NCBI RefSeq assembly: GCF_024519435.1
Contig: NZ_JALJRZ010000004.1
Span: 310,001 to 374,000, forward strand
Direction of reading: 5' to 3'
Origin: Terrabacter sp. Ter38
GTDB lineage: Bacteria > Actinomycetota > Actinomycetes > Actinomycetales > Dermatophilaceae
Length of the DNA: 64,000 bases
The notes under the pieces were generated by a model. It was not told the origin of the DNA and did no database searches. It worked only from the letters and a program-made list of their open reading frames with translations. How positions within the stretch are numbered: the first letter of the stretch is position 1; each line of letters opens with the position of its first letter. A program made the translations under genes and the position numbers. Positions 1-16,282 of this stretch are shown here, one piece after another.

Positions 1-51
1 CGCTGCATCCGGGTGCGCTTCTCGCTGACGAGTCGGTGCGGCGATGCGTAG
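1..51 (+). CDS. 3' end of an upstream eCIS gene (partial)
   Basis: Frame 1 is open from the window edge to a TAG at 49-51 and encodes 16 residues ending RVRFSLTSRCGDA. Third codon positions are mostly G/C, as in the neighbouring genes. The stop overlaps the ATG of the next gene by 8 nt, the tight packing seen throughout this operon. In eCIS loci this place is usually held by a baseplate gene (gp25- or J-like), but 16 residues are too few to identify it. That this is the coding frame is an inference; frame 3 also lacks a stop here. Confidence 0.45.
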   Translation, partial: RCIRVRFSLTSRCGDA

Positions 52-964
52 CCAGAGCGCGGTGACCGCGACCCCCGCCCGCGGGCCCGACCACACCCGG
101 CTCGCGTCGCAGCTGCCTGCCGTCTACCAGGAGGACGAGCTCTCGTTCGCCCAGGTCGACGCCTACCTCGGCCTCGCCGACGAGCTGAGCCACGCCGTCG
201 TCGAGCACCTCGAGGACCTGCTCACGGCGCTCGGGCCCGACGCGACGCTGCGCTGGCCCGCAGCCCTGTCCCTCGACGCGGGGGCCGAGGCGCTCGTGGC
301 GCACCACCTCGAGACCTACGACGAGGTCGCGCGGTGGGCGAGCGTCACCTTCCCGACCAGCTGGCCGGGCACCGAGCGAGGCCTCCAGCAGCGTCGCGAG
401 CTCCTCGCTCGGTGCACGAGGCTGTGGCGCCGCCGCGGCACCCCACGCGGGTTCCTCAGCTGGTTCTGCCTGTGGTTCGACCTTCCGGCCGCCGGCCGGC
501 CCTACCTGCTCGAGCACTTCAAGGCACCGGGTGCCGGCCTCACCGCCGAGCCCTACACCGCGACCCTCTTCGTCCCGACGAGCGTGCCCGTGCCGAGCAC
601 GGGTGACCCGTCGACGGCGAAGGGCTTCGTCGACTGGGAGCGGCGCGAGGAGGCGGTCGACTTCGTGCGGCGCTACGCCCCGGCCCACGTCGACCTGCGC
701 GTCTGCTTCACCGACCCGGCCGTCTTCACCGACCTCGCGGTGCTCGCGTCCCCGCCGACGCTCCCGGCCACGCCCACGGCGGACGAGGTGACGGCATACG
801 CCCTCGCCGTCCAGCAGCAGCAGGCCGACCTCAATGCGCTCCTGTGCTCCGTCGTGTCGGTCGTGAGCCACGCGAGCGGCATCCACCTCTACGAGTGCAT
901 CGACGCCGGCCGAGGCATCGACCGCCTCGGCGTCGGCCTCCTGCCGACCGATTCGACGACGTGA
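44..964 (+). CDS. Phage tail protein I-like baseplate component of an eCIS
   Basis: 306 aa. Residues about 20-150 resemble the phage tail protein I / P2 gpI-like domain: an N-terminal LPAVYQED start, a helical stretch, then RCTRLWRRRGTPRGFLSWFC, the typical RGTPRGL-type signature of this family. Family knowledge places such proteins in the baseplate wedge of contractile tails and of eCIS particles, where they help join sheath, tube and fibres. The C-terminal third holds the FVRRYAPAHVDLRVCF segment common in these proteins. It is the first complete gene of a same-strand run that includes a CIS tape-measure protein, the eCIS ATPase and an eCIS-core protein, which supports the assignment. The ATG overlaps the upstream stop by 8 nt. 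Confidence 0.75.
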   Translation: MRSQSAVTATPARGPDHTRLASQLPAVYQEDELSFAQVDAYLGLADELSHAVVEHLEDLLTALGPDATLRWPAALSLDAGAEALVAHHLETYDEVARWASVTFPTSWPGTERGLQQRRELLARCTRLWRRRGTPRGFLSWFCLWFDLPAAGRPYLLEHFKAPGAGLTAEPYTATLFVPTSVPVPSTGDPSTAKGFVDWERREEAVDFVRRYAPAHVDLRVCFTDPAVFTDLAVLASPPTLPATPTADEVTAYALAVQQQQADLNALLCSVVSVVSHASGIHLYECIDAGRGIDRLGVGLLPTDSTT

Positions 965-984
965 GTCCCGAAGGGAATCCAGCG

Positions 985-3201
985 ATGGCAGACAACCAGT
1001 ACCCCGTCTTCGTGGACGGCCAGACTCTCACCGAGGCCGAGCTCAACGACCTCCGGGACTTCCTCCACCAGCGCGACCGTCTCGTCGGGCGGCTCGTGGG
1101 CTTCGGCGTCAACGCCGGGCTGGGCGGCACGGTCTCGACGCCGACGACCTTGACGGTCGGGCCCGGCCTGGCAATCGACCAGCGCGGTGAGCCGCTGCTC
1201 CTCGGGGTGGAGCAGACACTGCCCCTGCCGCCCGTCGCCGAGTCGGTGACCTATGACTTCGTCGATGCCACGGCCGAAGGGTTCAGCCTCGTCCTCGAGT
1301 CCACCGACGCGATCGAGCCCACCCCGGACTGCGGCGAGTCGGGCTGCGCCGGGCACGCCGAGCTGCACACGCGTGGGGTCGCGCTGCGCATCGTCGCCGG
1401 TCGGGTGACCGGCACGCGGATGGACTTCGCGGCCGAGCCGCTGCTCAGCGTCGAGCCGATCCGGCTCGCCCTCGACTCGTCGCCGATCAACTCCTACCCG
1501 ACCCTGCGCAACGCCATCGCCGCCCGACTGACGAACGGCACCGCGCCCCTCGTCGACCCCACCCTCATCGCCAGGCTCCAGGCCACGTCGATCGCAAGCA
1601 CCGACACGGCGGGCATCCGCGGCTACAAGTGCGGTTGGCTCAACATGGTGCTCTTCGCGACCCTCGACCTGCTGCGCGTCCGCGCCCTGCTGGCGCTCAC
1701 CTGGGACCGCGACACGACGCGGCCGGGTGTCGTCCTCGGCTCGGTGCACCAGGTGGCGGGCGTGTGGGTCTTCGACTGCACCTACCGACACGCGTGGGAG
1801 CCGCCGCGGGGGTTCACCGAGGCCTTCCTCGGCGGGTCGTGCACCGACCCGGCGGGTGCCTTCCGCGACGAGGTCGAGGCGCTCCTGACCGGCTACGCGC
1901 CACCCGACCCGGCACCGGTCGGCGACCCCAAGCCGCCCGTCGCCTGTCCCGTCGGGTCCATCCGCGTCGGCGACCGGTGCGTCAAGATCGTCTTCCCGCC
2001 CAAGGAGATCCCCGACAAGTGGCGGCACACGTGGGTCTTCGACCCGCGCGAGCCGGTCTGGAACCCGCCGATCAAGACGTGGGAGCGGCCCGACGTCGTC
2101 TACGAGCGGCAGCCCATCGACGTGCTCGGCGAGCAGGAGTTCCCGCTCACCGACTTCCTCGGCCACGACGCGAACGACGTCAGGACCGTGCTCGGCGGCT
2201 TCATCACGGGGCAGGGAGCCATCGCCGACGTCCGCGTCATGTCGGCCGGTGACGTCATGACCCTCGACGGCTACGCGCCCGCCGGAGGCTTCGCGGCCTC
2301 GGACTCCGTCGTGCTCGGCACCGACGCGAACGGCGTCGTCGTATCGACGGGCCGCGTCCCGACGGTGCAGAACGTCCGGACCGTGGGGTCGGCGCTCCCG
2401 GCGGCTGTGGGCGCCGCGACCGAGGCGATGGCGGCGGCCACCGAGCTGCGCGGCCTGTCGACCGGCTTCGAGACCCACCTCGGCCAGCTCGACCAGTCGG
2501 TCGCCGGGCTCGGCGGCTCCTTCTCGACGCTCCAGACCGACTTCACGTCGTTCCGCGGCAGCTTCGACGCGGTGACCATCACGAACCGCCTCGGCGAGCT
2601 CGAGTCCGGCATCAAGCGCATCGACACGGTGCAGAACCAGATCGACGTCCTCGCCGGCAAGGTCGAGGTCATCTCGAAGTTCGGCGACGGCATCAAGCTC
2701 GACCCGAAGGCCGGCGGCGGCGGCGTCATCGCCATCGACCCGAACATCGGCACGCACGTCGGGGGCGGCGTCATCGGCGGAGGTGTCATCAGCGGGCCGG
2801 GGGGTGGGGGCGTCATCAGCGGTCCGGGCGTCGGCGGCATCGGCGGTATCGGCGGCATCGTCAAGCCGTCCGGGCAGGTCGACCGCGACCTGGCTCAGGG
2901 AGTTGCCGACTTCGCACGCACGACTGTGGACGCGCTGCGGTCGCTGCCCAACCCGCGCAACCGCAGCTTCAGCAGGTATGCCGCCGCGGCCGACCGCGCC
3001 CACGCCGCGCTCGCGCAGGCGGTGGCGCCGCCGGACACGCCGGAGGAGGCGGTCGAGACGCTCGAACCCGCCGCCCTGACGGCAGCGACGCTCGAGGTCC
3101 TCGGCACGCTCCGGACCCTCGTCAAGGCCGCGGGCGTCCCGAAGGACGTCGGTCGGCAGCTCGACGCGCAGCTGCGTGACCTCGGGGGCCTGGTGCCGTG
3201 A
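985..3201 (+). CDS. Large eCIS accessory/fibre-like protein with Gly-rich repeats
   Basis: 738 aa. I chose ATG 985, preceded by GAAGGG about 10 nt upstream; longer in-frame extensions overlap the previous gene. The N-terminus (FVDGQTLTEAELNDLRDFLH, then GFGVNAGLG and PGLAIDQRGEPLLLG) resembles a group of proteins often found next to eCIS baseplate genes and thought to be baseplate- or fibre-associated. Four cysteines near residues 113-123 and more near 325-335 could bind metal or form disulfides. Residues about 490-560 look like helical coiled coil. Residues about 575-630 are a Gly/Ile/Val repeat (GGGVISGP-type), and the last 100 residues are helical. The role is inferred from context; no catalytic motif was seen. 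Confidence 0.6.
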   Translation: MADNQYPVFVDGQTLTEAELNDLRDFLHQRDRLVGRLVGFGVNAGLGGTVSTPTTLTVGPGLAIDQRGEPLLLGVEQTLPLPPVAESVTYDFVDATAEGFSLVLESTDAIEPTPDCGESGCAGHAELHTRGVALRIVAGRVTGTRMDFAAEPLLSVEPIRLALDSSPINSYPTLRNAIAARLTNGTAPLVDPTLIARLQATSIASTDTAGIRGYKCGWLNMVLFATLDLLRVRALLALTWDRDTTRPGVVLGSVHQVAGVWVFDCTYRHAWEPPRGFTEAFLGGSCTDPAGAFRDEVEALLTGYAPPDPAPVGDPKPPVACPVGSIRVGDRCVKIVFPPKEIPDKWRHTWVFDPREPVWNPPIKTWERPDVVYERQPIDVLGEQEFPLTDFLGHDANDVRTVLGGFITGQGAIADVRVMSAGDVMTLDGYAPAGGFAASDSVVLGTDANGVVVSTGRVPTVQNVRTVGSALPAAVGAATEAMAAATELRGLSTGFETHLGQLDQSVAGLGGSFSTLQTDFTSFRGSFDAVTITNRLGELESGIKRIDTVQNQIDVLAGKVEVISKFGDGIKLDPKAGGGGVIAIDPNIGTHVGGGVIGGGVISGPGGGGVISGPGVGGIGGIGGIVKPSGQVDRDLAQGVADFARTTVDALRSLPNPRNRSFSRYAAAADRAHAALAQAVAPPDTPEEAVETLEPAALTAATLEVLGTLRTLVKAAGVPKDVGRQLDAQLRDLGGLVP

Positions 3202-4409
3202 CCGACGTGGCCGTCGACGTGCTGCGCCTGCGCGGGCCGGGCGCACGACGACTCGCGCGCGTCGCGGCCACGACGCTGCCTGCGGCCCTGGACCGGGCCC
3301 TGGCCGGTGTCGGCGACGTCCGTCTCGAGCACGTGGCCGTGACGCTCGACCTGTCCGTCGACGACTACGACGACGAGACGCTCGCAGTGCTGTGGGCCGA
3401 GGCGATCCGCACGCAGCTGCTCGCCGATGGAGGCGGGCGTCGCGACGTCGTCGCGCCGGGTGGGGATCCGGACGCGTCCCGGGGGCAGGGCTCCAGGCTG
3501 TCGCCGGTCGACGTCGCCACCGCGGCGAGGCTCTGGAGGGCAACGGCCGGTCCGCGTCCCGCAGCGCTTCCCTCCGCCGTGCTCGCCCTGGCCGACCCCC
3601 AGGTGGCGGCGTCGGCCCGCCCGCGGCTCGGCGACGCCGAGTGGAAAGCCCTCGTCGACACGATCGAGAGGGCCCTTGCCCCGCAGGCACGTTCAGGCCC
3701 TGCAGCCGCGGCGGACACGACGCCGTCACGGTCCCTGTCGGACCCGCCCCAGCTGCCTGACGCACCAGCGCCGGACGACGTGTCGACCGGGGACGCACCC
3801 GAGCCGGAGGACGTGGCGCCCACCACCGTTCCGCGCCCGGTCCGTGAGGCCGAGGTGCTCGCCCGGCTCGCGGCCGTCGCCCAGGTCGCGCCGGAGAGCG
3901 GCGCGCCCGTCGTGCTCGCCGACCTCACTCGCGCCGCCGGCATCGTGCTGCTCTATCCGTGGCTCGCCGACCACTGCCGTCGTGCCGAGGCGCTGCACCC
4001 GCGGCTCGACCCGGTCGACGTGCGCGAGGCGGCGCTCGCCGCGGTCGTCGATCCCGATGACCCGTCGCTGGCCGACGACCCACTGGTCCGCCTCCTCGCC
4101 GGGCGGGCACCCGACGTCGGCGTCGAGCCCCGAGCACGTATGCCGCTCAGCGGAGCCCGCGAGATCGCCGAGTCGGCGCACGGCGTGCTCGCCGGCTTCG
4201 CGGGACTGCTGCCGGGCTTCGAGCGGTCGAGCGAGGCCTTCGTGCGGGCGTCCTGGGTCGTGCGTGCCGGACTGCTCGACACCGGCCGCGACCCGGTGCT
4301 GCTCACGGCCGCGACCCACCCGCTCGACGTGCTCCTGCCGCGACTGCCCTACCCCATCGGCCTGCTCAAGCTGCCATGGTCACCGCCCGTCACCGTGAGG
4401 TTCCGGTGA
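3198..4409 (+). CDS. Contractile injection system tape measure-type protein
   Basis: 403 aa; GTG start in a GTGA overlap with the previous stop. The C-terminal half (about residues 230-403) follows the CIS tape-measure family pattern: an AGIVLLYPWLADH segment (family: AGLVLLhPfL), a middle part with SAHGVLAGFAGLLPGFERSSE and FVRASWVVRAGLLDTG (family: LReTFLqReG-L), a DVLLPRLPYPIGL segment, and the closing IKLPWM-like block LLKLPWSPPVTVRFR. The N-terminal part has the VxVLRLRGPGARRLAR start and a Pro/Ala-rich linker near residues 160-215. In eCIS such proteins are tied to tube length or to assembly of the particle interior. It is followed at once by the ATPase gene, the usual order. Confidence 0.8.
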   Translation: MTDVAVDVLRLRGPGARRLARVAATTLPAALDRALAGVGDVRLEHVAVTLDLSVDDYDDETLAVLWAEAIRTQLLADGGGRRDVVAPGGDPDASRGQGSRLSPVDVATAARLWRATAGPRPAALPSAVLALADPQVAASARPRLGDAEWKALVDTIERALAPQARSGPAAAADTTPSRSLSDPPQLPDAPAPDDVSTGDAPEPEDVAPTTVPRPVREAEVLARLAAVAQVAPESGAPVVLADLTRAAGIVLLYPWLADHCRRAEALHPRLDPVDVREAALAAVVDPDDPSLADDPLVRLLAGRAPDVGVEPRARMPLSGAREIAESAHGVLAGFAGLLPGFERSSEAFVRASWVVRAGLLDTGRDPVLLTAATHPLDVLLPRLPYPIGLLKLPWSPPVTVRFR

Positions 4410-5755
4410 GAGCCGGGCCGGAGTCGGTGTCCGGGACCTCCCGGGCCGCAACCGGCGCGCGGGAGGTCGCCGAGCTGCGGGCGGCGTTCGAGATGCTCGA
4501 TGCGCTCGTGGCCGTGCGCATCGAGGAGCGGCGGGGTGGACCCGCCGGCCGACCGCTCGGCATCGAGGGGGACGGTGAAGGCCTGCCGTCGCTCGAACGC
4601 CTTGCGGGAGTCGGCCCGCTCGCCGAGCTCGTCACGCTCACCGGACTGTCCGCCGCCGAGGCGGTCATCCTCGTGGCCGCGGTCGCACCTCACGCCGACG
4701 AGCGCTTCGCCGTGCGCTACGGCGCCCTCACGGATCGCCCCTCCGTCGTCGGCCTGACCGGCGAGGTGGCCCGCACCCTCGTCGCCCGGTCGTTCCGCGG
4801 GCGGCTCGACGCCACCGTCCTGCTCTCGTCGCAGGGCCGGCTGCGCGCGCAGGGGCTGCTGTCCCTCGACCCGCCCGGCGACCTGTCCGGGGTGCTGCGT
4901 CCCGACCCCGCCCTCGTGGCCTGGCTGCTCGGGCTGCCCGTCGAGGTGCCCGTCGCGTCGTCGGACTTCCCGGCGCGCCCGCTCACGACCGTCCACACGC
5001 TGGTTGACGTCGTCCTGCCCGCCACCGCGCGCAGCCGCATCGACGACCTCGCCGCCCGGATCACCCAGCGTGACACCGTCGTCGACGACTGGGGCTTCGG
5101 CGCCCACCACGACAATGCCAGCGGTCTCATCGCACTCTTCCACGGGCCGCCGGGGACCGGGAAGACGATGACGGCCGCGGCGCTGGCAGCGTCGGCGGGC
5201 CTCCCGGCATACCTCGTCGACCTCTCGGCGCTCGTGTCGAAGTACATCGGGGAGACGGAGAAGGCTCTCGCCAAGGTCTTCGAGCGAGCGGCGCGCGAGC
5301 GCTGTGTCCTCGTCTTCGACGAGGCGGATGCGGTCTTCGGGGCGCGCACCGAGGTCGGCGACGCACACGATCGCTACGCCAACCAGGAGGTGTCCTACCT
5401 GCTGTCCCGGGTCGAGCAGCACCCCGGCATCGTCGTCCTCACCTCCAACCTGCTCGCCAACATCGACACGGCCTTCCAGCGGCGCATCCACGTCATGGTC
5501 GAGTTCCCCGAGCCCGGGCCGGGTGAGCGCGAGCGGCTCTGGGCCGCTGTGGCCCCCGCGTCGCTGCCCATGGATCCGGCGATCGACCTGCGCGAGCTCG
5601 CGCGCCGCTTCCCCCTGACCGGCGCGCAGATCCGCGACGCGACGCTCGATGCGGCCTACCTCGCCGCGTCGAACGGTCGGGTCGTCACGACCGCGCACCT
5701 GCTCGACGGCATCCGTCGCCAGTTCGAGAAGGCGGGGCGGACGGTGCCACGGTGA
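4406..5755 (+). CDS. eCIS AAA+ ATPase (Afp15-like)
   Basis: 449 aa from GTG 4406, which overlaps the previous stop as GTGA and has GAGG 6 nt upstream; an ATG at 4376 would add 10 residues but lies inside the previous gene. Central AAA+ module: Walker A GPPGTGKT (about residue 247), Walker B CVLVFDEADAVFG (about 300), sensor 1 VVLTSNLLANID (about 345) and an Arg pair in FQRRIH (about 355), followed by the small helical lid. The pore-loop region YLVDLSALVSKYIGETEKAL is typical of classic-clade AAA proteins. The N-terminal 200 residues are a divergent helical domain. In eCIS loci this ATPase is needed for particle assembly and cargo loading; it sits directly before the eCIS-core gene here. Confidence 0.85.
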   Translation: MRAGPESVSGTSRAATGAREVAELRAAFEMLDALVAVRIEERRGGPAGRPLGIEGDGEGLPSLERLAGVGPLAELVTLTGLSAAEAVILVAAVAPHADERFAVRYGALTDRPSVVGLTGEVARTLVARSFRGRLDATVLLSSQGRLRAQGLLSLDPPGDLSGVLRPDPALVAWLLGLPVEVPVASSDFPARPLTTVHTLVDVVLPATARSRIDDLAARITQRDTVVDDWGFGAHHDNASGLIALFHGPPGTGKTMTAAALAASAGLPAYLVDLSALVSKYIGETEKALAKVFERAARERCVLVFDEADAVFGARTEVGDAHDRYANQEVSYLLSRVEQHPGIVVLTSNLLANIDTAFQRRIHVMVEFPEPGPGERERLWAAVAPASLPMDPAIDLRELARRFPLTGAQIRDATLDAAYLAASNGRVVTTAHLLDGIRRQFEKAGRTVPR

Positions 5756-8700
5756 GCACGCCGGTCACGACCCGCGCGGGACCGGGTCCCGGCCCGAACG
5801 CCGAGCGGGCCGGTTCGACGCGGTCGCCGCGGGATGCCGTCGCGCCGAGGTCACCGGTCGGCGAGGGACCGCCCGTGCTGGGGAGCGTGCCGCGCCCGGT
5901 GGGCGATGCCGCCGTCGTCGCGCTCGACCCGGCCACGACCGCCGGCGGGCTGTCGGCCGTGCAGGCCGAGTGGGGCGTCGACGGTGGCGCCGTCGTGCTC
6001 AGCGGACGGGGGCCCTTCACCGAGCTGACGGGCCGCGCCGGATTCCGGTCCGACGGGTCGCTCGACGGCAGCGTCGAGATGCGAGCTCGCGTCGGCCTGC
6101 TCGGCCTGCACCTCGGCGAGGCGACCTGGCGGGTCGAGGGCTGGGCGCCCGAGCAGCCCGTGGCGGCCCCGGCCGTGACGCTCCGCGGCACGACGCTCGG
6201 CGTCGACCTGCGACCCATCCCGGCGGAGGCCGGCTGGTCGGCGCCCGAGGGCGTCGACGCGCCCCGGAGCGGTGCGCAGGCGACGATCCACCTGCCGGGC
6301 GACGCCACACCGCCGGGACTTCCACTCACGCCACGCGTGGCCGAGGTCTACCGGGGACTGCTCGGCGTCGACGTCAGCGGCATCCGTGTCCACCCGGACT
6401 CCCCCGTCGCAGGCGCGCCCGCCTTCGTCACCGACGCCGACCTCTTCCTCGCGCCCGGCGTCTACGGCGTCGACAGCCCCGAGATGCTCGCCGTGCTCGA
6501 CGCCGCGATCAGGGCCGCGCTGGGCGGCCTCTTCGGCGCCGTCACCGGGGAGCCCGCACCGCTCGTGCCACCCGCCCCGCGCGCCCCGGCGGCACCCCCG
6601 GCCGACACGACCGTGGTGCCGGCCACCGTGCCGGAGCCCGCCTCGACGAGCACGGTCGCCGAAGAGGCGGCCGCACGCACGGGTGAGGCACCGGCGACCG
6701 GTGAGACCGCGGAGCAGGCCACCGCGGCGGTGGCCGCGACGGACGCGGTGGGGGCAGACGCGGTGGGCGCCGACGCGGGGACCGCGGCGGGCGGCATACC
6801 CGGCGGTGACGCGGGCGAGCCGACGGCGGAGGGGGAGTCGGCCCCGCCGGTGGTCGAGCTGATCATGCCTGAGCCGCCCACGACGCTGACCCCCGCGGCC
6901 ACGGCTCGCGGAGGGTCGGTCGCCGGGGCGGTGCGGAGCGCAGCCGGTGCGGCGCGGGACCTGCCGACGGCCGACGCCAACGTCGCCGACTCCCGGGGCG
7001 CCGTCACCGAGCCGCCCGCGGAGACGGCGGCTCGAGCCAGGGAGGAGCTGGCCGCCGAGCTCGGCGAACGGCCCGCGCCGAGCCCCGAGATCGTCGCCTT
7101 GTGCGACCGCATCCGGACGGCGATCCGCGAGAACCGGCCCGAGGACGAGGACCAGCTCCTCGAGACCGATCCCACCCACGAGGCCCAGGCGGCCGGCGCC
7201 ACGATCACGGGGTCCGTGGAGACGCAGACCGCGGAGGTGGGCAGCAGCTACGACGCGATGGGCTCCCCCCCGGCGGGGACACCCGCGCTGAACCCGACCC
7301 CGATCGCCGCCCCGTCACCCACCTCACCGGGGATGGGCGTGGACGCCGCGGGTGCCGCGCCTGACCCGATCCCGCCGGAGAACACCTCACTCGACGCCGA
7401 CGTCGCGGCCACCGACCAGCGGATCGCCGACTCTGGCATCGACACCCGGGTCACGCAGGAGATCCCGGACGGGCCGTTCGCCGAGGCGCGCGCCGCTCGG
7501 GGGGAGCTCGGTGAGGCGGCCCAGCGGACGCCACAGCAGATCCAGGCAGAGCAGCAGCAGGCCATCGACACCGCCCAGGGCGACATGGCCGCACTGCAGC
7601 AGCAGGCGGTCGCGGCCATGCGGGCCTCGCGGTCCGGCACCGTCGGCGCCGTCGCGGGCGGCCAGGGCGGCATGGTCACCTCGGAGGAGCAGACCCGCGA
7701 GTCGGTGTCGACCCGGGCCCAGGGCATCTACGACCAGGCGCAGACGCAGGTCAACGCGCTGCTCGAGCCACTGAGCCGCACCGCGATCGCCCGCTGGGAC
7801 GCCGGCCTCGCTCACCTCTCGCAGGACTTCCACGACACGCTCGACCGGGTCAAGCGCTGGATCGACGAGCGGCACTCCGGCGTCGGCGGCGCGATCCTCG
7901 CCGTCGGCGACTACATCGGGGGCCTGCCCGACTGGGTGACGGACGAGTACAACCGCGCCGAGCGTGAGTTCGGCGACGGCGTCTGCGCCCTGCTCACCGA
8001 CATCTCGAGCGACGTCAACGGTGTCGTCGCCGCAGCGCAGGCCGTCATCAACCATGCCCGTGACGACATCGACACGGCCTTCCGGGCCATGGAGGCGGAG
8101 TTCCCCGAGTGGGCGGCGCAGGAGCGGGCGCGGTTCTCCGGGATGCTCGACGGCCTCAGCCAGCACGTCACCGACGCCCAGACGAGCTTCGTGCGCGACG
8201 TGTCGCAGCGCGCCGTCCAGGCGGTCAACGAGGTGCATGCCGAGGCGCAGGCCCGCCGGGACGAGGCCGGCGGGCTCATCGGTCGGGTCGTCGCGGCCAT
8301 CGAGGAGTTCATCGACGACCCCGTGCGCGCCATCATCAACGGCCTGCTCCGACTCGTCGGGATCCCCCCGGCGGCCTTCTGGGCGTTGATCGCCCGCATC
8401 GAGCAGGTCATCTCCGACATCGCCGACGACCCCGAGAACTTCATCAACAACCTCGTCGCCGGGGTCAAGCAGGGCTTCGAGCAGTTCTTCGACCACTTCG
8501 GCACCCATGTGCTGCACGGCTTCTGGGACTGGCTCTTCTCCGGGCTCGAGACCCCGATCCCGATGCCACGCGACTTTTCGGCGCGCTCCCTCTTCTCCTT
8601 CGCGCTCCAGCTCATGGGCGTCACGTGGCCGCGCGTCCGCGAGATCCTCGTGCGGCACATCGGACCCACCGCGGTCGACGTCATCGAGGCCGCCTGGCAG

Positions 8701-10875
8701 CTCGTCTCGGTCCTCATCGAACGCGGACCCGAGGGGCTCGTCGAGCTCGTCAAGGAGCAGCTGACCCCCGAGAACATCGTGAACATGATCCTCGAGGCCG
8801 CGGTGCAGTATCTCGTGGAGACCCTCATCCAGCAGGTCGTCGTCCGCGTCATCGGGATGCTCAACCCGGTCGGTGCCATCGCCCAGGCCATCGACCTCAT
8901 CTACCAGGTGTGCTCGTGGATCTTCCGCAACGCGGCGCGGATCTTCCGCTTCGTCGAGGCCATCGTCAACGGCATGGCCGACGTCATCGCCGGCAACATC
9001 GGCGGCCTGGCCGCCGCCGTCGAGCGCTCCCTCGCCTCTCTCATCCCGCCGGTCATCGACTTCCTCGCCGGCCTCTGTCACCTCGGTGGACTGCCCGGCG
9101 AGATCGCCGACGTCATCACCCGCATGCAGGCGGTCGTGTATGCCGCGATGGATCGGGTCATCGGCTTCCTCGCCGAGCGCGGGCGGGCGCTGTTGGCGCG
9201 CATGGGAATCGGTGGTGATCCCGCGCAGGCCGGCCACAACGGCGACACCGAGCTCGGCACGACAGTGCGCTTCAGCGCCGCCCACGAGGCCCACCGCACC
9301 TGGATCGACCGAGCCGGCAACGACGCGACGCTCATGGTGGCCTCGACCCCGACCGCGATCCGTGACAAGGCCGCCGAGTGGCGGGGACGTCTTTCCGCCA
9401 TCGAGAACGCCGAGGACCGCTCGGCCGCCGACGCCAAGCTGACCGAGCTCGACGGGCTGCTCACGTCGATGGACGCCGAGGCCGACGCCCTGGCCCAGGC
9501 CTTCGAGGCGGCGAACCGCGACCCGCGGGGCGAGCAGGAGCCGCCGTCCGACAACGCTCTCGAGTCCCGGCAGCGAGGGCTCGCCACCGTCCTGCGCGAG
9601 TGCTTCGAGCTGTTCGAGGAGAAGAACCCGGACGACTACCTCCGCGACATCGCCTCGCACCTCCAGGGCCACGGCACGGAGTACGCGGCGACCGTAGCTT
9701 CCCAGTGGGAGCCGACCATCGCGCGGCCCAAGCTCGCGCCGGACGGCACGACGCCGATCTGGGAGCCGAGCGTGGTCTCGACCGACGGCGCTCGTAGCTA
9801 CCTGGGGCAGCCGTCGACGCACCGACAGCTGCTGCCGTGGTTCCTCGTCGGCAGCCAGCGCAACCCACGCTCCGCCTCGTCCGGCACCTTCAAGAACCAC
9901 GCCTTCGAGACCGACTCGCCCGACCCGGCCCACACGGTGCGCACCGACTTCCTGCGGGTGCTGGGCAGCGACACGGTGACGCGGATGATCCGAGTCGCGA
10001 ACCGCTCGATCACGACCGAGGACAACTCGGCGCTGCTGCGGCAGATCCAGACGATGACCTTCACGGCGTCCGGTGGCCGCTGGGGGTCGTTCGTCGGGCT
10101 CCCGGCCGACGTTGTCAACCCGCTCATCAAGACGGCGATCACCCGGGCCGGCGACGTCATCGCCTTCCTGCGCGCCATGGTCTCGCCCGGCAGCTCGAAC
10201 GGTGTCACGTGGGCCCAGTTCATCGCCGTCTGGAACGCGAGCGCTGAGACGAAGAACTACGTCAAGCGGCTCTTCCGCAAGGTCGAGCCCGCGAGCCACG
10301 AGTGGATCACGACGGGGTTCATCCCGCGGGTCATCGAGACCGCCGTCGAGACCGCCAACACCGGCAACATCCGCGACGGCCTCCGGTGGGTCGTCGCGCA
10401 CAACACGCTGCGGTCGCCCACGCGCTACGTGCTGCACCCGCCCGTCGTCACGAGCTCGCGCGCCCCACGAGGCATGCGCGCGGCGGACAGCACAGTGGCT
10501 ACGGTGCGCATGTCGGGCCACGTCGGTGCGTTCCGAGACCCGGCGGACCCGACCTCGATGACCGGCACGATGGGCACGGAGGAGTTCCATGACTGGCTTC
10601 GCAACGAGTTCAACGCGCAGAACGGGCTCGGGCCACTGGCGTACATCCAGCACCTGCAGTCCCAGCTGCCCGGGCGTGTCTGGGACGGCGGTGTCGGCAT
10701 GATTCCCGAGAGCGCCCTGAGCCAGCCCGTCGGAATGCTCTTCCGGCTCGAGAGCGGTGAGGACGCGGCCCTCACGGTGGCGCAGCTCGCCTTCCGGCAG
10801 CGCCTCAACTGGCAACGGATCCAGGCCAACTTCGCGGCGTCGTCCGCTGCCGTCGCGGCGGAGACGGGCGCATGA
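5752..10875 (+). CDS. Giant eCIS-core (DUF4157-like) protein, HExxH-less
   Basis: 1707 aa, GTG start in GTGA overlap. Order of parts: beta-rich N-terminus (about 40-180); a DUF4157/eCIS-core-like block (about 186-260) with LPLTPRVAEVYRGLLGVDVS, GIRVHPDS and FVTDADLFLAPGVYG; a Pro/Ala/Thr-rich linker (260-560); a Gln/Ala-rich helical stretch (580-680); a long amphipathic helical region (690-1150) with the WLFSGLETPIPMPRDF (about 926) and MLNPVGAIAQAI (about 1036) segments common downstream of the core domain in eCIS loci; then HEAHRTW-MVASTPTAI (about 1180) and a C-terminal region (1250-1707) of unknown fold containing SHEWITTGFIPRVIE. The normal HELxHxxQ zinc motif of DUF4157 is replaced by AVLDAAIRAAL. 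Likely a cargo or inner-particle protein; the C-terminus may be an effector, but no catalytic motif was recognised. Confidence 0.8.
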   Translation: MSTPVTTRAGPGPGPNAERAGSTRSPRDAVAPRSPVGEGPPVLGSVPRPVGDAAVVALDPATTAGGLSAVQAEWGVDGGAVVLSGRGPFTELTGRAGFRSDGSLDGSVEMRARVGLLGLHLGEATWRVEGWAPEQPVAAPAVTLRGTTLGVDLRPIPAEAGWSAPEGVDAPRSGAQATIHLPGDATPPGLPLTPRVAEVYRGLLGVDVSGIRVHPDSPVAGAPAFVTDADLFLAPGVYGVDSPEMLAVLDAAIRAALGGLFGAVTGEPAPLVPPAPRAPAAPPADTTVVPATVPEPASTSTVAEEAAARTGEAPATGETAEQATAAVAATDAVGADAVGADAGTAAGGIPGGDAGEPTAEGESAPPVVELIMPEPPTTLTPAATARGGSVAGAVRSAAGAARDLPTADANVADSRGAVTEPPAETAARAREELAAELGERPAPSPEIVALCDRIRTAIRENRPEDEDQLLETDPTHEAQAAGATITGSVETQTAEVGSSYDAMGSPPAGTPALNPTPIAAPSPTSPGMGVDAAGAAPDPIPPENTSLDADVAATDQRIADSGIDTRVTQEIPDGPFAEARAARGELGEAAQRTPQQIQAEQQQAIDTAQGDMAALQQQAVAAMRASRSGTVGAVAGGQGGMVTSEEQTRESVSTRAQGIYDQAQTQVNALLEPLSRTAIARWDAGLAHLSQDFHDTLDRVKRWIDERHSGVGGAILAVGDYIGGLPDWVTDEYNRAEREFGDGVCALLTDISSDVNGVVAAAQAVINHARDDIDTAFRAMEAEFPEWAAQERARFSGMLDGLSQHVTDAQTSFVRDVSQRAVQAVNEVHAEAQARRDEAGGLIGRVVAAIEEFIDDPVRAIINGLLRLVGIPPAAFWALIARIEQVISDIADDPENFINNLVAGVKQGFEQFFDHFGTHVLHGFWDWLFSGLETPIPMPRDFSARSLFSFALQLMGVTWPRVREILVRHIGPTAVDVIEAAWQLVSVLIERGPEGLVELVKEQLTPENIVNMILEAAVQYLVETLIQQVVVRVIGMLNPVGAIAQAIDLIYQVCSWIFRNAARIFRFVEAIVNGMADVIAGNIGGLAAAVERSLASLIPPVIDFLAGLCHLGGLPGEIADVITRMQAVVYAAMDRVIGFLAERGRALLARMGIGGDPAQAGHNGDTELGTTVRFSAAHEAHRTWIDRAGNDATLMVASTPTAIRDKAAEWRGRLSAIENAEDRSAADAKLTELDGLLTSMDAEADALAQAFEAANRDPRGEQEPPSDNALESRQRGLATVLRECFELFEEKNPDDYLRDIASHLQGHGTEYAATVASQWEPTIARPKLAPDGTTPIWEPSVVSTDGARSYLGQPSTHRQLLPWFLVGSQRNPRSASSGTFKNHAFETDSPDPAHTVRTDFLRVLGSDTVTRMIRVANRSITTEDNSALLRQIQTMTFTASGGRWGSFVGLPADVVNPLIKTAITRAGDVIAFLRAMVSPGSSNGVTWAQFIAVWNASAETKNYVKRLFRKVEPASHEWITTGFIPRVIETAVETANTGNIRDGLRWVVAHNTLRSPTRYVLHPPVVTSSRAPRGMRAADSTVATVRMSGHVGAFRDPADPTSMTGTMGTEEFHDWLRNEFNAQNGLGPLAYIQHLQSQLPGRVWDGGVGMIPESALSQPVGMLFRLESGEDAALTVAQLAFRQRLNWQRIQANFAASSAAVAAETGA

Positions 10876-11528
10876 CGACCGACGTGGACCGGGCCCTCGC
10901 CGAGCTCGTCGAGGCCGGTGCGGTCGCCGCGGGAACCACGCCGGGAGAGGTCGTCGACCTCATCGTGTCGCACGCTCGCTCCCTCGACGGGCTCGAGCGC
11001 TTCACCGGTCTCGAGACCCTGTCGCTCATCGCCTGCGACGTCGGCGACTACTCCGTGCTGTCTCTCCTGAGCGGGCTCCACGTGCTCGCCGTCGAGAACA
11101 GTGACCTCGCCGACGTCTCGCCCGTCGCCGGCCTGCCCCTGCAGGTCCTGTCATTGCGCCGCAACAGGATCCGCGACGCCTCAGCCATCATCGCACTGGA
11201 CGGGCTCCAGGTGCTGGACCTGACCGGCAACCCCCTCGACCCACCGAGTCGTTCAGCGGCGGGGGCGCTCGAGGGAGTGCTGGTGACCCTCGACGACCCG
11301 GCCCTCGCCGACGTGAACGTCGACCTGGCCGATGCCGGCGTGCCCCTCGTCGGCTACCGCGTCGGCGACGAGGTCTGGGGCTGTTCCACCGGCCTGGGTC
11401 TCACCGCCCACCCCGAGGCCGGCCACGTCGTCACCTCGCTCGAAGACCTCGAAGCCGTGGCCCGGGGTGACCGCGACGCGGGCGACCTCCTCGGGGTGCG
11501 TACCGACGACGCGCAGGAGGACACATGA
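10872..11528 (+). CDS. Leucine-rich-repeat protein of the eCIS operon
   Basis: 218 aa; ATG overlaps the preceding stop (ATGA). Residues about 35-130 contain four to five leucine-rich repeats of the type GLETLSLIACDVGDYSVL, GLHVLAVENSDLADVSPV, PLQVLSLRRNRIRDASAI and GLQVLDLTGNPLDPP. The remaining C-terminal part is acidic and not recognised. LRR folds are protein-binding surfaces; translational coupling to the giant core protein suggests it binds that protein or another particle component, or acts as a partner/immunity-like factor. This is inference. No signal peptide or membrane helix is visible, so it is probably cytoplasmic. Confidence 0.7.
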   Translation: MTTDVDRALAELVEAGAVAAGTTPGEVVDLIVSHARSLDGLERFTGLETLSLIACDVGDYSVLSLLSGLHVLAVENSDLADVSPVAGLPLQVLSLRRNRIRDASAIIALDGLQVLDLTGNPLDPPSRSAAGALEGVLVTLDDPALADVNVDLADAGVPLVGYRVGDEVWGCSTGLGLTAHPEAGHVVTSLEDLEAVARGDRDAGDLLGVRTDDAQEDT

Positions 11529-11842
11529 GCACCGAACCGGAAGAGACGGCATACGGGCCCGGGACGCGGTGGGTGGCCCGGCAGACCGGGCGCACGCCCC
11601 AGGAGCTGACGGCGTCACCCGCTGCGGCGGTGGCCGCGGTCGGGGACGCGGTGCGTCAGGTGGCGGCGCTCGCCGAGCGCCTCGAGTCCGAGGACCCCGA
11701 GGTCAGGGCCGCGGCGCAGGCCGAGGCCGAGGCGCTGCGCAAGCAGGTCGAGACCGATCCCACGCCGGGGGCGCGGTTCGGCTCACGCGTCGCCCAGGTG
11801 CTCCGGGACGCCGCCGAGCGGCTCGACCGCCCGCAAGACTGA
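11525..11842 (+). CDS. Small helical protein, last gene of the eCIS operon
   Basis: 105 aa; ATG in ATGA overlap with the LRR gene, so it is almost certainly translated with it. The sequence is Ala/Glu/Arg-rich and predicted helical from about residue 20 to 80 (AAAVAAVGDAVRQVAALAER and EVRAAAQAEAEALRKQVETD), with coiled-coil character. No cysteine, signal peptide or known motif. It could be an assembly chaperone or adaptor for the larger proteins of the operon, but the sequence alone does not show this. Confidence 0.65.
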   Translation: MSTEPEETAYGPGTRWVARQTGRTPQELTASPAAAVAAVGDAVRQVAALAERLESEDPEVRAAAQAEAEALRKQVETDPTPGARFGSRVAQVLRDAAERLDRPQD

Positions 11843-11974: not shown

Positions 11975-13387
11975 TCAGGCGAGGTAGTCGTCGACGAGCC
12001 GGCTCGCGAGGGCGGTGTAGGTCTGCGGCGTCAGGGCCACGAAGCGGGCCTCGACGTCGGCGGGCAGCCCCAGCCCGCGGACGAACTCGCGCAGGTCGTC
12101 ACCATCGATGCGGCGACCGCGGGTCAGCTCCTTGAGTCGCTCGTAGGGCTCCTCCATCCCCGGAACGCCTTGCGCCCCAAGGGCCCTCATCGCCGACTGA
12201 ATCGGTTCGCCGAGCACCTCCCAGTTGCCCTCGAGGTCGGCTGCCATGCGCTCCGGCACGGCGTCGAGACCGGCGAGGCCGCGGGCGACGTTGTCGAGCG
12301 CGAGCATCGAGTGCCCGAAGGCCGTGCCGATGTTGCGCTGCATGCTCGAGTCGGTGAGGTCGCGCTGGAGGCGGCTCTGCACGAGCGTGCCGCCGAGCAC
12401 GTCGAGCAGCGCGTTGCTCACCTCGAGGTTGGCCTCGGCGTTCTCGAAGCGGATCGGGTTGACCTTGTGCGGCATCGTGCTCGACCCGACCGTGCCGTGG
12501 CCGCGGACCTGGGCGAAGTAGCCCATCGAGATGTAGGTCCACACGTCGGTGCAGAGGTTGTGCAGGATGCGGTTGAAACGCGCGACGTCGGCGTAGAGCT
12601 CGGCCTGCCAGTCGTGGCTCTCGATCTGCGTCGTCAGCGGGTTCCACGTGAGGCCGAGGCCCTCGACGAACGCGCGCGACACGGCGGGCCAGTCGACGTC
12701 GGGCAGGGCGAGCGCGTGCGCCCCGAAGGTGCCGGTCGCGCCGTTGAACTTGCCGAGGTACTCCTGCTCCTCGATGCGGCGCAGCTGTCGGCCGAGGCGG
12801 TGCGCGAGGACGGCGAGCTCCTTGCCCATCGTCGTCGGCGTCGCGGGCTGCCCGTGGGTGTGCGCGAGCAGTGGCACGTCCTTGAGCTCGCGCGCCAGAT
12901 CTGACACCTGCGCGACGAGTGCCTGCGCCCTGGGCAGCCACACCTGCTGGACGGCGCCCTTGACCATGAGGGCGTAGGAGAGGTTGTTGATGTCCTCGCT
13001 CGTGCAGCCGAAGTGGATCAGCTCGGCGAGTCCCTGGTCCTCGTGCGCCGGGGCGATCGCCGTGAGGCGCTTCTTGAGGAAGTACTCGACGGCCTTGACG
13101 TCGTGGACGGTGACCCGCTCGATCTCGCCGAGCTCGGCAACCTCGGCGGTGCCGAAGTCCTCGACAACGGCTCGCAGCGCTGCGATCTCGTCGTCGGTGA
13201 GCTGCCGTACGCCCGGCACGACGCCGTGGCTCGTCTGGTGGATGAGCCACTCGATCTCGACGTGCACGCGCTGCCGGTTGAGCGCTGCCTCCGACAGGTG
13301 GTCGACGAGCGGCGCGACGGCGCCGCGGTAGCGACCGTCGAGCGCCCCGAGCGCGATGGGCGGGGTTGCGTCAGCGAGCGTTGCCAT
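11975..13387 (-). CDS. purB: Adenylosuccinate lyase
   Basis: 470 aa, the usual length. Catalyses two fumarate-releasing steps: SAICAR to AICAR in purine synthesis and adenylosuccinate to AMP. The fumarase/aspartase superfamily signature GSSTMPHKVNP is present about residue 305, with the CTSEDINNL segment and the HTHGQPATPTTMGKEL segment carrying the catalytic His. ATG start with GGGAGGA 6 nt upstream. It stands alone, convergent with the eCIS operon, and has no link to it in function. Confidence 0.97.
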   Translation of the reverse strand: MATLADATPPIALGALDGRYRGAVAPLVDHLSEAALNRQRVHVEIEWLIHQTSHGVVPGVRQLTDDEIAALRAVVEDFGTAEVAELGEIERVTVHDVKAVEYFLKKRLTAIAPAHEDQGLAELIHFGCTSEDINNLSYALMVKGAVQQVWLPRAQALVAQVSDLARELKDVPLLAHTHGQPATPTTMGKELAVLAHRLGRQLRRIEEQEYLGKFNGATGTFGAHALALPDVDWPAVSRAFVEGLGLTWNPLTTQIESHDWQAELYADVARFNRILHNLCTDVWTYISMGYFAQVRGHGTVGSSTMPHKVNPIRFENAEANLEVSNALLDVLGGTLVQSRLQRDLTDSSMQRNIGTAFGHSMLALDNVARGLAGLDAVPERMAADLEGNWEVLGEPIQSAMRALGAQGVPGMEEPYERLKELTRGRRIDGDDLREFVRGLGLPADVEARFVALTPQTYTALASRLVDDYLA

Positions 13388-13494
13388 GCCGACATCCTCC
13401 CAGAGCGCGAGACGTGGTTCGTATGCCGTCCGGCGCGGTCCGCGGGTGCAGCGCGGTCCGGGCCCGGCGGCATCCGCCCGCCGTCCGCGGGGTC

Positions 13495-14289
13495 TCAGTC
13501 GGCGGCGGGCTGCGCGGGGAGCTGCATGACCGAGAACGTCTCGCCCTGGGGGCCGGCGACGAGTGCCATCCGGCCGTAGGGGGTGTCGAAGGGCGGCTGC
13601 ATGACGGTGCCGCCGAGCGCAGTGACCCGGTCGGCCGCCGCGTCGGCGTCGGCCACGGCGAAGTAGGTCATCCAGTGCGAGGGCACGTCGGCGGGCGCCG
13701 CGGCAGGGATGGCGCCGATGCCGCCGATGGGCGTGTCACCCTCGAGCGTCGCGACGGAGTACTGGAAGCCGCCCTCGCCGATCTCCTGCAGGCGGTAGCC
13801 GAAGACATCGGCGTAGAAGGTCTTGCTCGCCTCGTAGCTGCGACTCATCGACTCGGCCCAGCAGAGGGACCCGGGCTCGTCGACGAGGTCGGTGCCTGTG
13901 TGCTCCTTGGCCTGCCACAGGCCGTAGGCGGCCCCGGCCGGGTCGGCGCCGACGGCGATGCGACCGACCTGCAGGACGTCCATCGGCCCGAGGAAGAAGA
14001 CGCCGCCCGCCTCGCGGGCACGCTCGACCGTGGCCTCGACGTCGTCGGTCGCGAGGTAGACCGTCCACGCGCTGACCTGCCCGGGGTCGTCCGGGTTCTT
14101 GGCCATGGCGCCCGCGACGACGTGGCCGTCCTTGCGGGCCATGACGTACCCGCCCGCCTCGGGTGGGAGGTCCTGGAAGGTCCAGCCGAAGAGGCTGCCG
14201 TAGAAGGCGCGGGCGCGGTCGAGGTCGTCGACCATGACGTCGGCCCAGCACGGCGTTCCGGGTGCGAAGGACTCCTCGTGGACGGGCAC
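13495..14289 (-). CDS. Two-domain VOC (glyoxalase-fold) protein
   Basis: 264 aa with two VOC (vicinal oxygen chelate) modules, about residues 8-125 and 138-258, each starting with GxxCWAD/E-type and FY-LFGW/VFGY patterns (DDLDRARAFYGSLFGW; SYEASKTFYADVFGY). Such tandem VOC proteins bind small molecules or act as dioxygenase/lyase-like enzymes; the substrate cannot be told. GTG start with AGGAG 7 nt upstream. It is the last gene of a same-strand set with a second double-VOC protein and a phosphatase, and is probably a paralogue of that neighbour. Confidence 0.85.
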   Translation of the reverse strand: MPVHEESFAPGTPCWADVMVDDLDRARAFYGSLFGWTFQDLPPEAGGYVMARKDGHVVAGAMAKNPDDPGQVSAWTVYLATDDVEATVERAREAGGVFFLGPMDVLQVGRIAVGADPAGAAYGLWQAKEHTGTDLVDEPGSLCWAESMSRSYEASKTFYADVFGYRLQEIGEGGFQYSVATLEGDTPIGGIGAIPAAAPADVPSHWMTYFAVADADAAADRVTALGGTVMQPPFDTPYGRMALVAGPQGETFSVMQLPAQPAAD

Positions 14290-14349
14290 GGGTGGCTCCT
14301 GACGTCGATGGGTCGGCGGGTGAGTGGGTCGTGGACGCTCGGGTGGTGG

Positions 14350-15141
14350 TCAGTCGAGGTCGGGGACGAGGAGCGAGAACACTTCTCCCTCAGGGCCGCT
14401 CAGCACCGCACCCATGCCGTAGGGGCCGTCGAACGGTCCCTGGAGCAGCGTCGCGCCGAGGTCGAGCGCACGCGCCAGGCCGGGCACGACGTTGCGGGTC
14501 GCGAAGGACGCCACCCAGTGCGGCGGGATCTCGGCGGGCCACTCGCCGTCGATCTCCGCGAGACCGTAGGCCGGGTTGCCGTCGCCGGTGTGCGCCGTCG
14601 CCCAGCGTGGGCCGCCGGGTTCGGTCTCGTCGGTGAACTCGTGGCCGAAGACGCCGAACTGGAAGTTCTGCACCATCTCGTAGTCGCGGGTGAGCAGCTC
14701 GTTCCACGTGAGCGACCCGGGCTCGTCGAGGATGCCGCTGCCCGGCAGGTCGCCGGGCTCCCAGACCCCGAAGTAGGAGCCGCCGGGATCGACGGCGATG
14801 AGGGTGCGGGACAGGGCACCGATGGAGACGGGGCGTCCGAGGGTGCGTCCGCCGTAGGCGTGGATGGCGCGAGCCGCGACGTCGATGTCGCCGACGCGGA
14901 GGTAGGTCGTCCACTGGCTGGGGATCGGCGCCGTCTCGGGCTTGCGGCTGATGCCGGCGACGGGGTGGCCGTCGAGGAGCGCCATCGTGTAGCCGCCGGT
15001 CGCGGGGTCGCCGGCCAGCCAGCGCCAGCCGAAGAGCTCGCTGTAGAACGTCTGGGCGCGGGGGACGTCGCTGACGAGCAGGTCGACCCAGCACGGGGAA
15101 CCATAGGGATAGTCGGGCACAGTCAGATTCAGGTCTCGCAT
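14350..15141 (-). CDS. Two-domain VOC (glyoxalase-fold) protein, paralogue of neighbour
   Basis: 263 aa from ATG 15141, which gives the typical MRDLNLTVPDYPYGSPCWVD start and begins 5 nt after the phosphatase stop; a longer frame would overlap that gene. Two VOC modules with SPCWVDLLVSDVPRAQTFYS (N-terminal) and GSLTWNELLTRDYEMVQNF (C-terminal). Same architecture as the downstream gene at 13495-14289, so likely a tandem duplication. The ligand or reaction is unknown. Confidence 0.85.
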   Translation of the reverse strand: MRDLNLTVPDYPYGSPCWVDLLVSDVPRAQTFYSELFGWRWLAGDPATGGYTMALLDGHPVAGISRKPETAPIPSQWTTYLRVGDIDVAARAIHAYGGRTLGRPVSIGALSRTLIAVDPGGSYFGVWEPGDLPGSGILDEPGSLTWNELLTRDYEMVQNFQFGVFGHEFTDETEPGGPRWATAHTGDGNPAYGLAEIDGEWPAEIPPHWVASFATRNVVPGLARALDLGATLLQGPFDGPYGMGAVLSGPEGEVFSLLVPDLD

Positions 15142-15145
15142 CGGG

Positions 15146-15700
15146 TCAGGGCTGCTCCGGGTCGTGCTGGGAGTGTGCGCGTCCGGCCAGCCGGCCGTCC
15201 AGCTGGTCCCTGACGTGGTGAAGGATGCCATGACAAGCCGCCTCGACCTCTGCGAAACACCGGGCGAAGTGCTCGGGGCCGCCGTACCACGGGTCCCCGG
15301 TCTCGAGGGTGCCCGCGGCGACGGCCTCGGGATCGAACTCGCGCACGAGCCGGATCTTGCTGCGGTTGCGCGGGGTGCGGGCCAGTCGCTGCAGCGTGCG
15401 CACGTGTCCCTCGTCGGAGGCGAGGACGAGGTCGAGGTCGTCGAACTCGTCGGGGTCGAACTCGCGGGCCCGGTGCCGGGACCCGTCGTAGCCGTGCTCG
15501 GCGAGGACCTGGACGGTGCGCGGGTCGGCGTGCTCGCCGACGTGCCAGTCGCCGGTGCCGCTCGAGCTGACCCGGACGTGGTCGGCGATGCCCGCGTCGT
15601 CGACGAGGCGCTGGAGGATCACGTGACCCATGGGCGACCTGCAGATGTTGCCGCTGCACACGAAGGTGACGTGGAGTGGGCGAGACGACATGGTGCCCAT
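15146..15700 (-). CDS. Low-molecular-weight protein-tyrosine phosphatase
   Basis: 184 aa. The active-site P-loop C-x5-R-S is VCSGNICRSP near residue 14, and the general-acid Asp lies in DPWYGG near residue 137, both classic for LMW-PTP. These enzymes remove phosphate from tyrosine on proteins and in actinobacteria may be secreted or act on capsule/kinase systems. Start ATG 15700 (MGTMSSR) or the second ATG at 15691; neither has a strong ribosome site. It heads the small operon with the two double-VOC genes. Confidence 0.92.
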   Translation of the reverse strand: MGTMSSRPLHVTFVCSGNICRSPMGHVILQRLVDDAGIADHVRVSSSGTGDWHVGEHADPRTVQVLAEHGYDGSRHRAREFDPDEFDDLDLVLASDEGHVRTLQRLARTPRNRSKIRLVREFDPEAVAAGTLETGDPWYGGPEHFARCFAEVEAACHGILHHVRDQLDGRLAGRAHSQHDPEQP

Positions 15701-15844
15701 TGAACACCGCGGATCGGGCCGCGAGGCCCGAAGCGCGATCCCACCTCGTCACGGTGGCGCCGAGCGGGTCGAGGCGGCGTTCGGTGCGCCGGTGCTGGGG
15801 TTGGCCGTGAGGCAGGTGGGGCTGTCGGTGGCCGGTGGGACGGT

Positions 15845-16279
15845 GTGACCATGACGACGACCGCGCACCCGTCCGCCGTGGGGGCCAGTGCCCCCGAGGC
15901 CCTCGAGTCCCGCTTCGCCGCCTGCGTCGCGTCCGGCGACCTGGACGGCATCGTGGGGTTGTATGCCGCCGACGCGGTCGTGAGCCTTCCGCGCGGTCGC
16001 GAGGCGGCGGGCTCCACCGCCATCCGCACGGCGTTCGCTGCCGCATTGGCCGCGGGAGTCCTCGGTCCGGTCGGTGGGCCGGCGCCGGCGGTGTCGGCCC
16101 GCGCCGTGGTGACCGGCGGGCTCGCGATGACGACGTCGACCGCCCCGGACGGCACGGTGCGCACCCAGGTGGCTCGTCGCACCGTCGACGGACGCTGGGT
16201 GTGGGTGCGCGACGGCTCGCGACTGCGCGACGCCGAGGCCTGCCTCCCCGCGCCGCCGGGCGACCTGGCGGTGGCGTAG
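15845..16279 (+). CDS. SnoaL/NTF2-like small protein
   Basis: 144 aa. The start region (FAACVASGDLDGIVGLYAADAVVSLPRG...GSTAIRTAF) is the usual opening of SnoaL-like/NTF2-fold proteins, which form a cone-shaped pocket and act as small-molecule isomerases or binders. The end (TVDGRWVWVRDGSRLRD) also fits. GTG 15845 or ATG 15851 are both possible; a GACGGT hexamer lies 6 nt before the ATG and may be a -10 box. Ligand unknown. Its TAG stop forms part of the presumed promoter of the next gene. Confidence 0.75.
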   Translation: MTMTTTAHPSAVGASAPEALESRFAACVASGDLDGIVGLYAADAVVSLPRGREAAGSTAIRTAFAAALAAGVLGPVGGPAPAVSARAVVTGGLAMTTSTAPDGTVRTQVARRTVDGRWVWVRDGSRLRDAEACLPAPPGDLAVA

Positions 16280-16282
16280 TTT
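16277..16282 (+). promoter_or_regulatory. -10 box (TAGTTT) for leaderless MFS mRNA
   Basis: TANNNT hexamer followed by exactly 6 nt and the GTG start; its first three bases are the TAG stop of the upstream gene. Confidence 0.55.

Follow-up and report, generated by a model that had tools for sequence, protein, structure and literature searches.

Several described effectors of contractile injection systems (CISs) resemble the protein examined here. Tme of the Streptomyces davawensis CIS is reported as the largest open reading frame of its cluster, with an N-terminal core shared among extracellular CISs (eCISs), a tape-measure-like hydrophobic helical middle and a C-terminal effector domain (Nagakubo 2024, PMC11126660). 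Sle1/Sle2 of S. lividans SLP and RS14790/RS14785 of M. eburnea are presented as a tape-measure-related effector type with diverse C-terminal domains, one relative of which has a downstream antidote gene (Nagakubo 2026, PMC13277306). The PVC-metallopeptidase polymorphic toxins join a constant N-terminal eCIS domain to a variable C-terminal toxin, sometimes with adjacent immunity genes, among which Imm-LRR is a named class (Zhang 2012, PMC3482391). The role of the core domain, DUF4157, has been called unknown (PMC8213781, PMC11297309), and it has been termed an intriguing mystery that antibacterial eCIS toxins have no immunity genes next to them (Geller 2021, PMC8213781). We analysed a 64,000-nucleotide stretch (C43:310001-374000, here the window; GC content 72%) of the 4.83-Mb genome of a Terrabacter, a soil actinobacterium, at whose left end lies a run of eCIS genes that includes one for a giant protein.

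This left end is probably the cargo end of an actinobacterial eCIS, complete and borne on an island, in which a giant protein loaded like a tape measure carries an exchangeable C-terminal tip, with leucine-rich repeat (LRR) immunity in some alleles. On our best reading of the sequences, the giant would be a polymorphic CIS effector whose tip has an unrecognised fold, and the LRR protein would serve as its immunity protein in those alleles.

The original prediction, made from the letters of the window, took positions 1-11842 to be the 3' part of an eCIS operon and staked this in advance on sheath, tube and gp25 genes lying within 20 kb to the left and on a match of the 3198-4409 product to CIS tape-measure models. 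Both expectations held. Sheath, tube and gp25 genes were all found upstream on the same contig, together with baseplate J and the other core genes, at most 13 kb from the window (coordinates in stretch L003 minus 14000 give window coordinates, negative values lying left of the window). They encode, with E-values in brackets, the sheath (PF04984, 2.4e-22; PF17482, 5.6e-13), two gp19 tubes (PF06841, 1.9e-42 and 1.1e-31), a CIS_tube/LysM hub (PF19266, 6.7e-42; the LysM part weak at 0.019), a Phage_base_V spike (PF04717, 1.8e-23), a PAAR protein (PF05488, 2.3e-21), GPW_gp25 (PF04965, 1.5e-15), Baseplate_J (PF04865, 1.8e-11) and, at the left end of the operon, a Pvc16_N/DUF4255 tail terminator (PF14065, 3.9e-22). 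The tape-measure protein and AAA+ ATPase that had been named within the window match their family models (Table 1), and with them the eCIS operon is complete, every core part looked for being present. No fibre family was recognised in the operon. There is a single sheath gene; the Pfam sheath domains are confined to the last third of its product, which suggests a large N-terminal part or an insertion. The left end of the island carries a BTAD regulator, BTAD being listed among the eCIS shell domains (PMC8213781).

The giant itself gave no Pfam match. Its middle matches PHROGs tail tape-measure families (phrog_4200, 2.7e-7, residues 752-914; phrog_1535, 5.6e-6, residues 896-1091) and contains hydrophobic windows at residues 865-883, 1029-1047 and 1093-1112 (simple Kyte-Doolittle scan, threshold 1.5). 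It is tape-measure-like, as are the described Tme and Sle1 effectors. The giant had been called DUF4157-like; although Pfam does not support this, the core homology is supported by profile-profile comparison, in which the core of 10 relatives aligned with 14 intact eCIS cores (hhalign 97.6%, E 2.7e-12; reversed control 0.1%).

In this core the HExxH helix is replaced by VLDAAIRAAL. HExxH is missing from 11 of 11 actinobacterial giants of the set (the window's and L022-L031) and kept in both non-actinobacterial ones, from metagenome-assembled genomes (MAGs) of Nitrosospira and Bacteroidetes; when the class was sampled more widely, 15 of 16 giant frames were without it. For seven of these 15, a separate frame with an intact core lies elsewhere in the stretch fetched, resembling the Sle1/Sle2 arrangement. 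A search of the window's genome for PF13699 at E 0.001 gave no match, compared with matches in 36 of 296 genomes of the phylum, and the window's lineage appears to represent a third core arrangement, fused but degenerate. A lineage that keeps the DUF4157 domain but loses HExxH argues for docking over proteolysis. Because Pfam finds no match in the giant or the genome, screens with DUF4157 models would miss this effector. The MAGs labelled Nitrosospira (L032) and Bacteroidetes (L033) combine the same scaffold (~50% identity) with their HExxH-bearing cores, through wide transfer or misbinning. Two genomes each encode two giant tape-measure-like effectors with different tips (G802, L085 and L088; G796, L089 and L098).

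The expectation that the cargo end would be the part differing between species held: a constant scaffold carries an exchanged tip, with a small gene beside some tips. Four congeners have the locus, Terrabacter sp. Root181 (G007), Root85 (G008) and MAHUQ-38 (G001) and Terracoccus sp. 273MFTsu3.1 (G003). Residues 1-1165 of their giants are 96% (Root181), 88% (MAHUQ-38), 96% (Root85) and 95% (273MFTsu) identical to the window's; over residues 1166-1707 (~540 residues) the corresponding values are 97%, 59%, 36% and 31%. In the alignment of 13 loci, Root85 and 273MFTsu have scaffolds 98% identical to the window's, against 30% and 26% for the last 207 residues, and dN between the window and Root85 is 0.77 in the C-terminal part versus 0.013 in the scaffold. 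Actinoplanes (scaffold 84%, last 207 residues 71%) and Microbacterium (68% and 57%) have tips nearer the window's than are those of three of the four congeners.

Trees of nine loci differ accordingly between the two parts. The scaffold tree groups Terrabacter (89/92, not starred) and rejects a group of the LRR-linked tips (p-value of the approximately unbiased test, p-AU, 6e-4), whereas the tip tree groups the window, Root181, Actinoplanes and Microbacterium (99/99), places MAHUQ-38 with Streptomyces spongiae (98/99) and rejects a Terrabacter clade (p-AU 9e-61). The MAHUQ-38 giant reads as a chimera: its scaffold is 90-91% identical to Terrabacter and 82% to S. spongiae, and it is nearest to type A until about residue 1500 and then to type B (67% to S. 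spongiae). The C-terminal part has been exchanged between species, presumably by recombination on near-identical operons. Rapid vertical divergence of the tip would fit the end-to-end alignment of tip types A, B and C, with 18 invariant residues in common; set against a 98% identical scaffold, closer tips in other genera, the MAHUQ-38 mosaic and the tree tests, it is extremely improbable.

An LRR gene lies directly 3' of the giant in the window, Root181, Actinoplanes, Microbacterium and G802. It was not found in the MAHUQ-38, Root85, 273MFTsu and Nocardioides loci, nor seen in S. spongiae, where the contig is readable for only ~370 bases past the giant; the LRR protein occurs in 2 of 9 genus genomes. 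Among 29 scaffold loci, five have both this tip and the LRR gene, five the tip without it, none the LRR gene without the tip, and 19 neither (Fisher p 0.002 for all 29 loci and 0.007 for the 17 class-sample rows; rows not independent in either case). Tip and LRR models built without genome G802 were each run against a draw of 394 genomes of the class, the two draws agreeing as far as they are listed. The tip model matches two class genomes only, G000 (1.9e-105) and G802 (1.7e-56), and these also give the only strong LRR-model matches (1.5e-112 and 2.4e-24), the LRR gene adjoining the tip in both. Tip and LRR protein lose identity to the window in parallel: in Root181, Actinoplanes, Microbacterium and G802, respectively, the values are 99, 71, 57 and 31% for the tip and 93, 59, 38 and 35% for the LRR protein. 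The ratio dN/dS of the LRR gene is 0.13 between the window and Root181 and 0.49 between the window and Actinoplanes, compared with 0.37 for the 105-residue protein encoded last in the island, 0.065 for the giant's scaffold and 0.044 for the tip; the LRR gene is therefore maintained, less strictly than the giant.

Other tips have other genes in the same slot: a 186-aa gene common to Demequina and Cellulomonas (43% identical), after the Demequina nuclease tip and the similar Cellulomonas tip, and, after the Bacteroidetes MAG tip, a gene with two stretches of SUKH-1, a known immunity superfamily. A tip accompanied in some species by a small LRR gene is what one would expect if the two were toxin and antidote. 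Since the same scaffold occurs both with tips that have a linked gene and with tips that have none, the immunity-gene puzzle becomes testable in close relatives, as does the role of DUF4157 through the loss of HExxH.

Several points weigh against this interpretation. In the 13 named loci alone the linkage is not significant (Fisher p 0.18), three weak LRR-model matches (2e-7 to 2e-9) fall in genomes without this tip, and the G802 tip stands no nearer to type A than it does to the remaining types. For the scaffold, a grouping of MAHUQ-38 with S. spongiae is not rejected (p-AU 0.18) and the Terrabacter clade lacks a star. According to the 2012 survey, immunity proteins of the LRR type are not in wide use, and many toxins of PVC systems are without immunity genes (PMC3482391). 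Nor is the LRR gene seen in 5 of the 10 loci with this tip family; such a non-obligatory partner could be an adaptor, a chaperone or a co-delivered protein on which some tips depend for their loading or targeting. The LRR fold serves for binding in general, which counts for that explanation. A chaperone role towards eCIS toxins, in cis or in trans, has also been proposed for DUF4157 proteins (PMC11297309). We nevertheless judge an adaptor unlikely: in none of the 19 loci that combine this scaffold with other tips is the LRR gene seen, and the slot elsewhere holds the SUKH-1 gene or the unrelated gene beside a nuclease tip.

A further point against a toxic tip is that no catalytic family or fold was recognised in it by Pfam, PHROGs, PADLOC or PDB comparison. 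This, and high tip divergence between species on a conserved core and scaffold, would suit a target-recognition domain varied by receptor arms races. We consider that quite improbable, since the Demequina tip on the same scaffold looks like a nuclease (PF13930, 1.3e-6), and the Cellulomonas tip is 70% identical to it. Still other tips on this scaffold are presumably deaminase-like and HNH-like, judged by motifs only, which would weaken target recognition further. The best-studied relative, Tme, is reported to have an endonuclease tip (PMC11126660), and eCIS receptor binding is assigned to tail fibres (PMC12923769).

Also against immunity in the usual sense, the Streptomyces CISs studied, with the effectors Tme and Sle1, are reported to act in the producer (PMC11126660, PMC13277306), so that 'immunity' may be the wrong word. 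The particle might likewise stay cytoplasmic and act, under stress or during development, on the cell or mycelium that made it, the tip tuning physiology and the LRR protein setting a threshold. The BTAD regulator and the lack of a recognised fibre family in the operon agree with this. Terrabacter is not a sporulating mycelial genus, however, and tip exchange between genera together with linked immunity-like genes is more typical of conflict with other cells. On balance we think action on the own cell somewhat unlikely.

For a polymorphic effector with a linked immunity protein, we infer loading, ejection, toxicity and immunity as follows. The giant would be packed into the tube much as a tape-measure protein is in a phage tail, probably assisted by the ATPase whose gene overlaps its own; Pvc15 is reported to load signal-peptide cargo (PMC11495950), which supports such a role. 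The HExxH-less core probably docks the giant to the spike or baseplate without peptidase action. Contraction would eject the giant; the hydrophobic helical part of the protein would then enter or traverse a membrane, leaving the tip to act in the compartment targeted. Tip exchange would come about when operons that are otherwise nearly identical recombine, and in tip-linked alleles the product of the next gene, here the LRR protein, would bind and neutralise the tip in the producer. More tentatively, and with some doubt, these loci may form an actinobacterial CIS effector lineage built on a peptidase-dead docking core, in which the tip is a toxin of new fold, some alleles carry an LRR antidote that is mobile along with it, and kin discrimination through phage-tail particles can differ between near-identical strains.

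Table 1. Features of the eCIS locus in window coordinates.
Feature	Position	Strand	Evidence and remarks
BTAD regulator	-13983 to -13078		1.2e-20; left end of island
Sheath protein, 871 aa	-11344 to -8729		L003:2656-5271
3' end of Afp12/gp7-position baseplate gene	1..51	+	by position only; 584 aa if start is GTG L003:12297
Tail protein I-like gene, 306 aa	44..964	+	NCBIfam TIGR02242 6.4e-5, CIS12 0.0016, both below cut-off
738-aa protein, Afp13 position	985..3201	+	family not recognised; kept in actinobacterial relatives of the operon
CIS tape-measure protein	3198..4409	+	CIS_TMP PF19268 1e-13, over cut-off
Pvc15-type AAA ATPase, winged-helix N domain	4406..5755	+	PF00004 4.5e-26, PF22977 2.8e-12
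Giant tape-measure-like putative effector, 1707 aa	5752..10875	+	PHROGs tape-measure matches; constant N part, variable C part
Degenerate eCIS core (DUF4157) without HExxH, residues 187-264	6310..6543	+	hhalign
Tape-measure-like helical scaffold, residues 601-1165	7552..9246	+	51-98% identical to the window's in 12 other aligned loci
Pre-tip module	9247..9480	+	motif ELGTTVRFSAAxExHRxW...LMVAS; in 13 aligned loci
Exchangeable C-terminal tip, residues 1475-1707	10174..10872	+	invariant HEW, H, FHxxLR
Candidate immunity protein, LRR gene, 218 aa	10872..11528	+	LRR_4 5.7e-8; beside this tip in 5 of 10 loci
105-aa accessory protein, last island gene	11525..11842	+	follows cassette whatever the tip

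The run of seven complete genes on one strand is present just as predicted, as are the 4-nucleotide GTGA/ATGA overlaps at five of its six junctions (3198, 4406, 5752, 10872 and 11525); the remaining junction, from 964 to 985, is a 20-nucleotide gap. An eighth gene runs in from the left: the open frame at the Afp12/gp7 position, without a Pfam or NCBIfam match, ends at L003:14051 (window 51), with its stop at 49-51. Because of the GTGA overlap with the tape-measure gene, we place the ATPase start at GTG 4406 (449 residues) and not at ATG 4376, the start of the frame used in the domain scan. Each of the seven genes occurs in one or more of the congeners, six of them in all four, and most differences from Root181 are synonymous in the four genes tested, so the run is far beyond chance.

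The tail protein I-like assignment is weak: its NCBIfam matches are below cut-off and Pfam gives none. This gene is 88-97% identical in the four congeners. The 738-aa protein next to it, without a Pfam, PHROGs or NCBIfam match, is 43-50% identical in five other genera. It sits between the tail protein I-like gene and the tape measure, the position of the Afp13 fibre, and includes a stretch rich in glycine; over its first 80 residues there is a weak match to the Nitrosospira locus L032 (32%, 2.4e-5). The 105-aa protein, with no family over cut-off in Pfam or NCBIfam, follows the cassette in 5 of 5 Terrabacter loci and 5 of 6 other actinobacterial loci, the contig of the sixth ending ~370 bases after the giant.

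The eCIS locus is a clean presence/absence unit of ~26 kb beside purB. CIS_TMP was found in 5 of 9 genus genomes and in 0 of 89 other relatives searched. Three complete congeners (G004, G005 and G006) have an uninterrupted site, in which left-flank homology reaches about -14055 to -14083 and the purB 3' end follows from about +11960 to +11975, with 69-172 bases unmatched between the two homologous blocks; this comparison left out G002 (74% complete). To the right of the island, 11975-17776 holds the adenylosuccinate lyase gene (purB), VOC-like genes and a small phosphatase-like gene, named by eye from translations, purB also having been used as a query.

With Afp/PVC the operon shares the sheath, tubes, LysM hub, spike, PAAR protein, gp25, baseplate J, tape measure, ATPase and tail terminator. 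It differs in having the terminator gene at its left end, a single sheath gene of 871 residues, no recognised Afp13 fibre family and a tape-measure-like effector. The PVC-metallopeptidase toxins are defined by a conserved HExxHxxQ-E signature (PMC3482391), which the window's giant has lost. Sle1/Sle2 differ in that the eCIS core is described there as a separate small protein, Sle2 (PMC13277306), whereas here it is fused and degenerate in a genome without a PF13699 match; the main text of that paper contains neither 'leucine-rich' nor 'LRR'. For Tme we compared the protein of G222, taken as Tme-type, whose N-terminal sequence is almost that of the published Tme-N antigen. The two share the pre-tip motif (23.8 bits, 8.5e-10 in the Streptomyces protein), but the G222 protein keeps an intact HELLH core (PF13699, 1.2e-27), has a different tip and is only marginally similar to the window's scaffold (BLASTP E 0.36, HMM 4.5 bits). 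Neither 'immunity' nor 'antitoxin' occurs in the main text of the Tme paper (PMC11126660). In the literature searched, with most subscription journals outside coverage, we found no report of a Terrabacter contractile injection system or of an eCIS with an immunity gene and leucine-rich repeats. The eCIS itself is ordinary for actinobacteria. Loss of HExxH, the tape-measure kinship of the giant and LRR-tip linkage go beyond the original prediction, and what is new relative to the known systems lies at the cargo end: a core without HExxH, an exchanged tip and a sometimes linked LRR gene.

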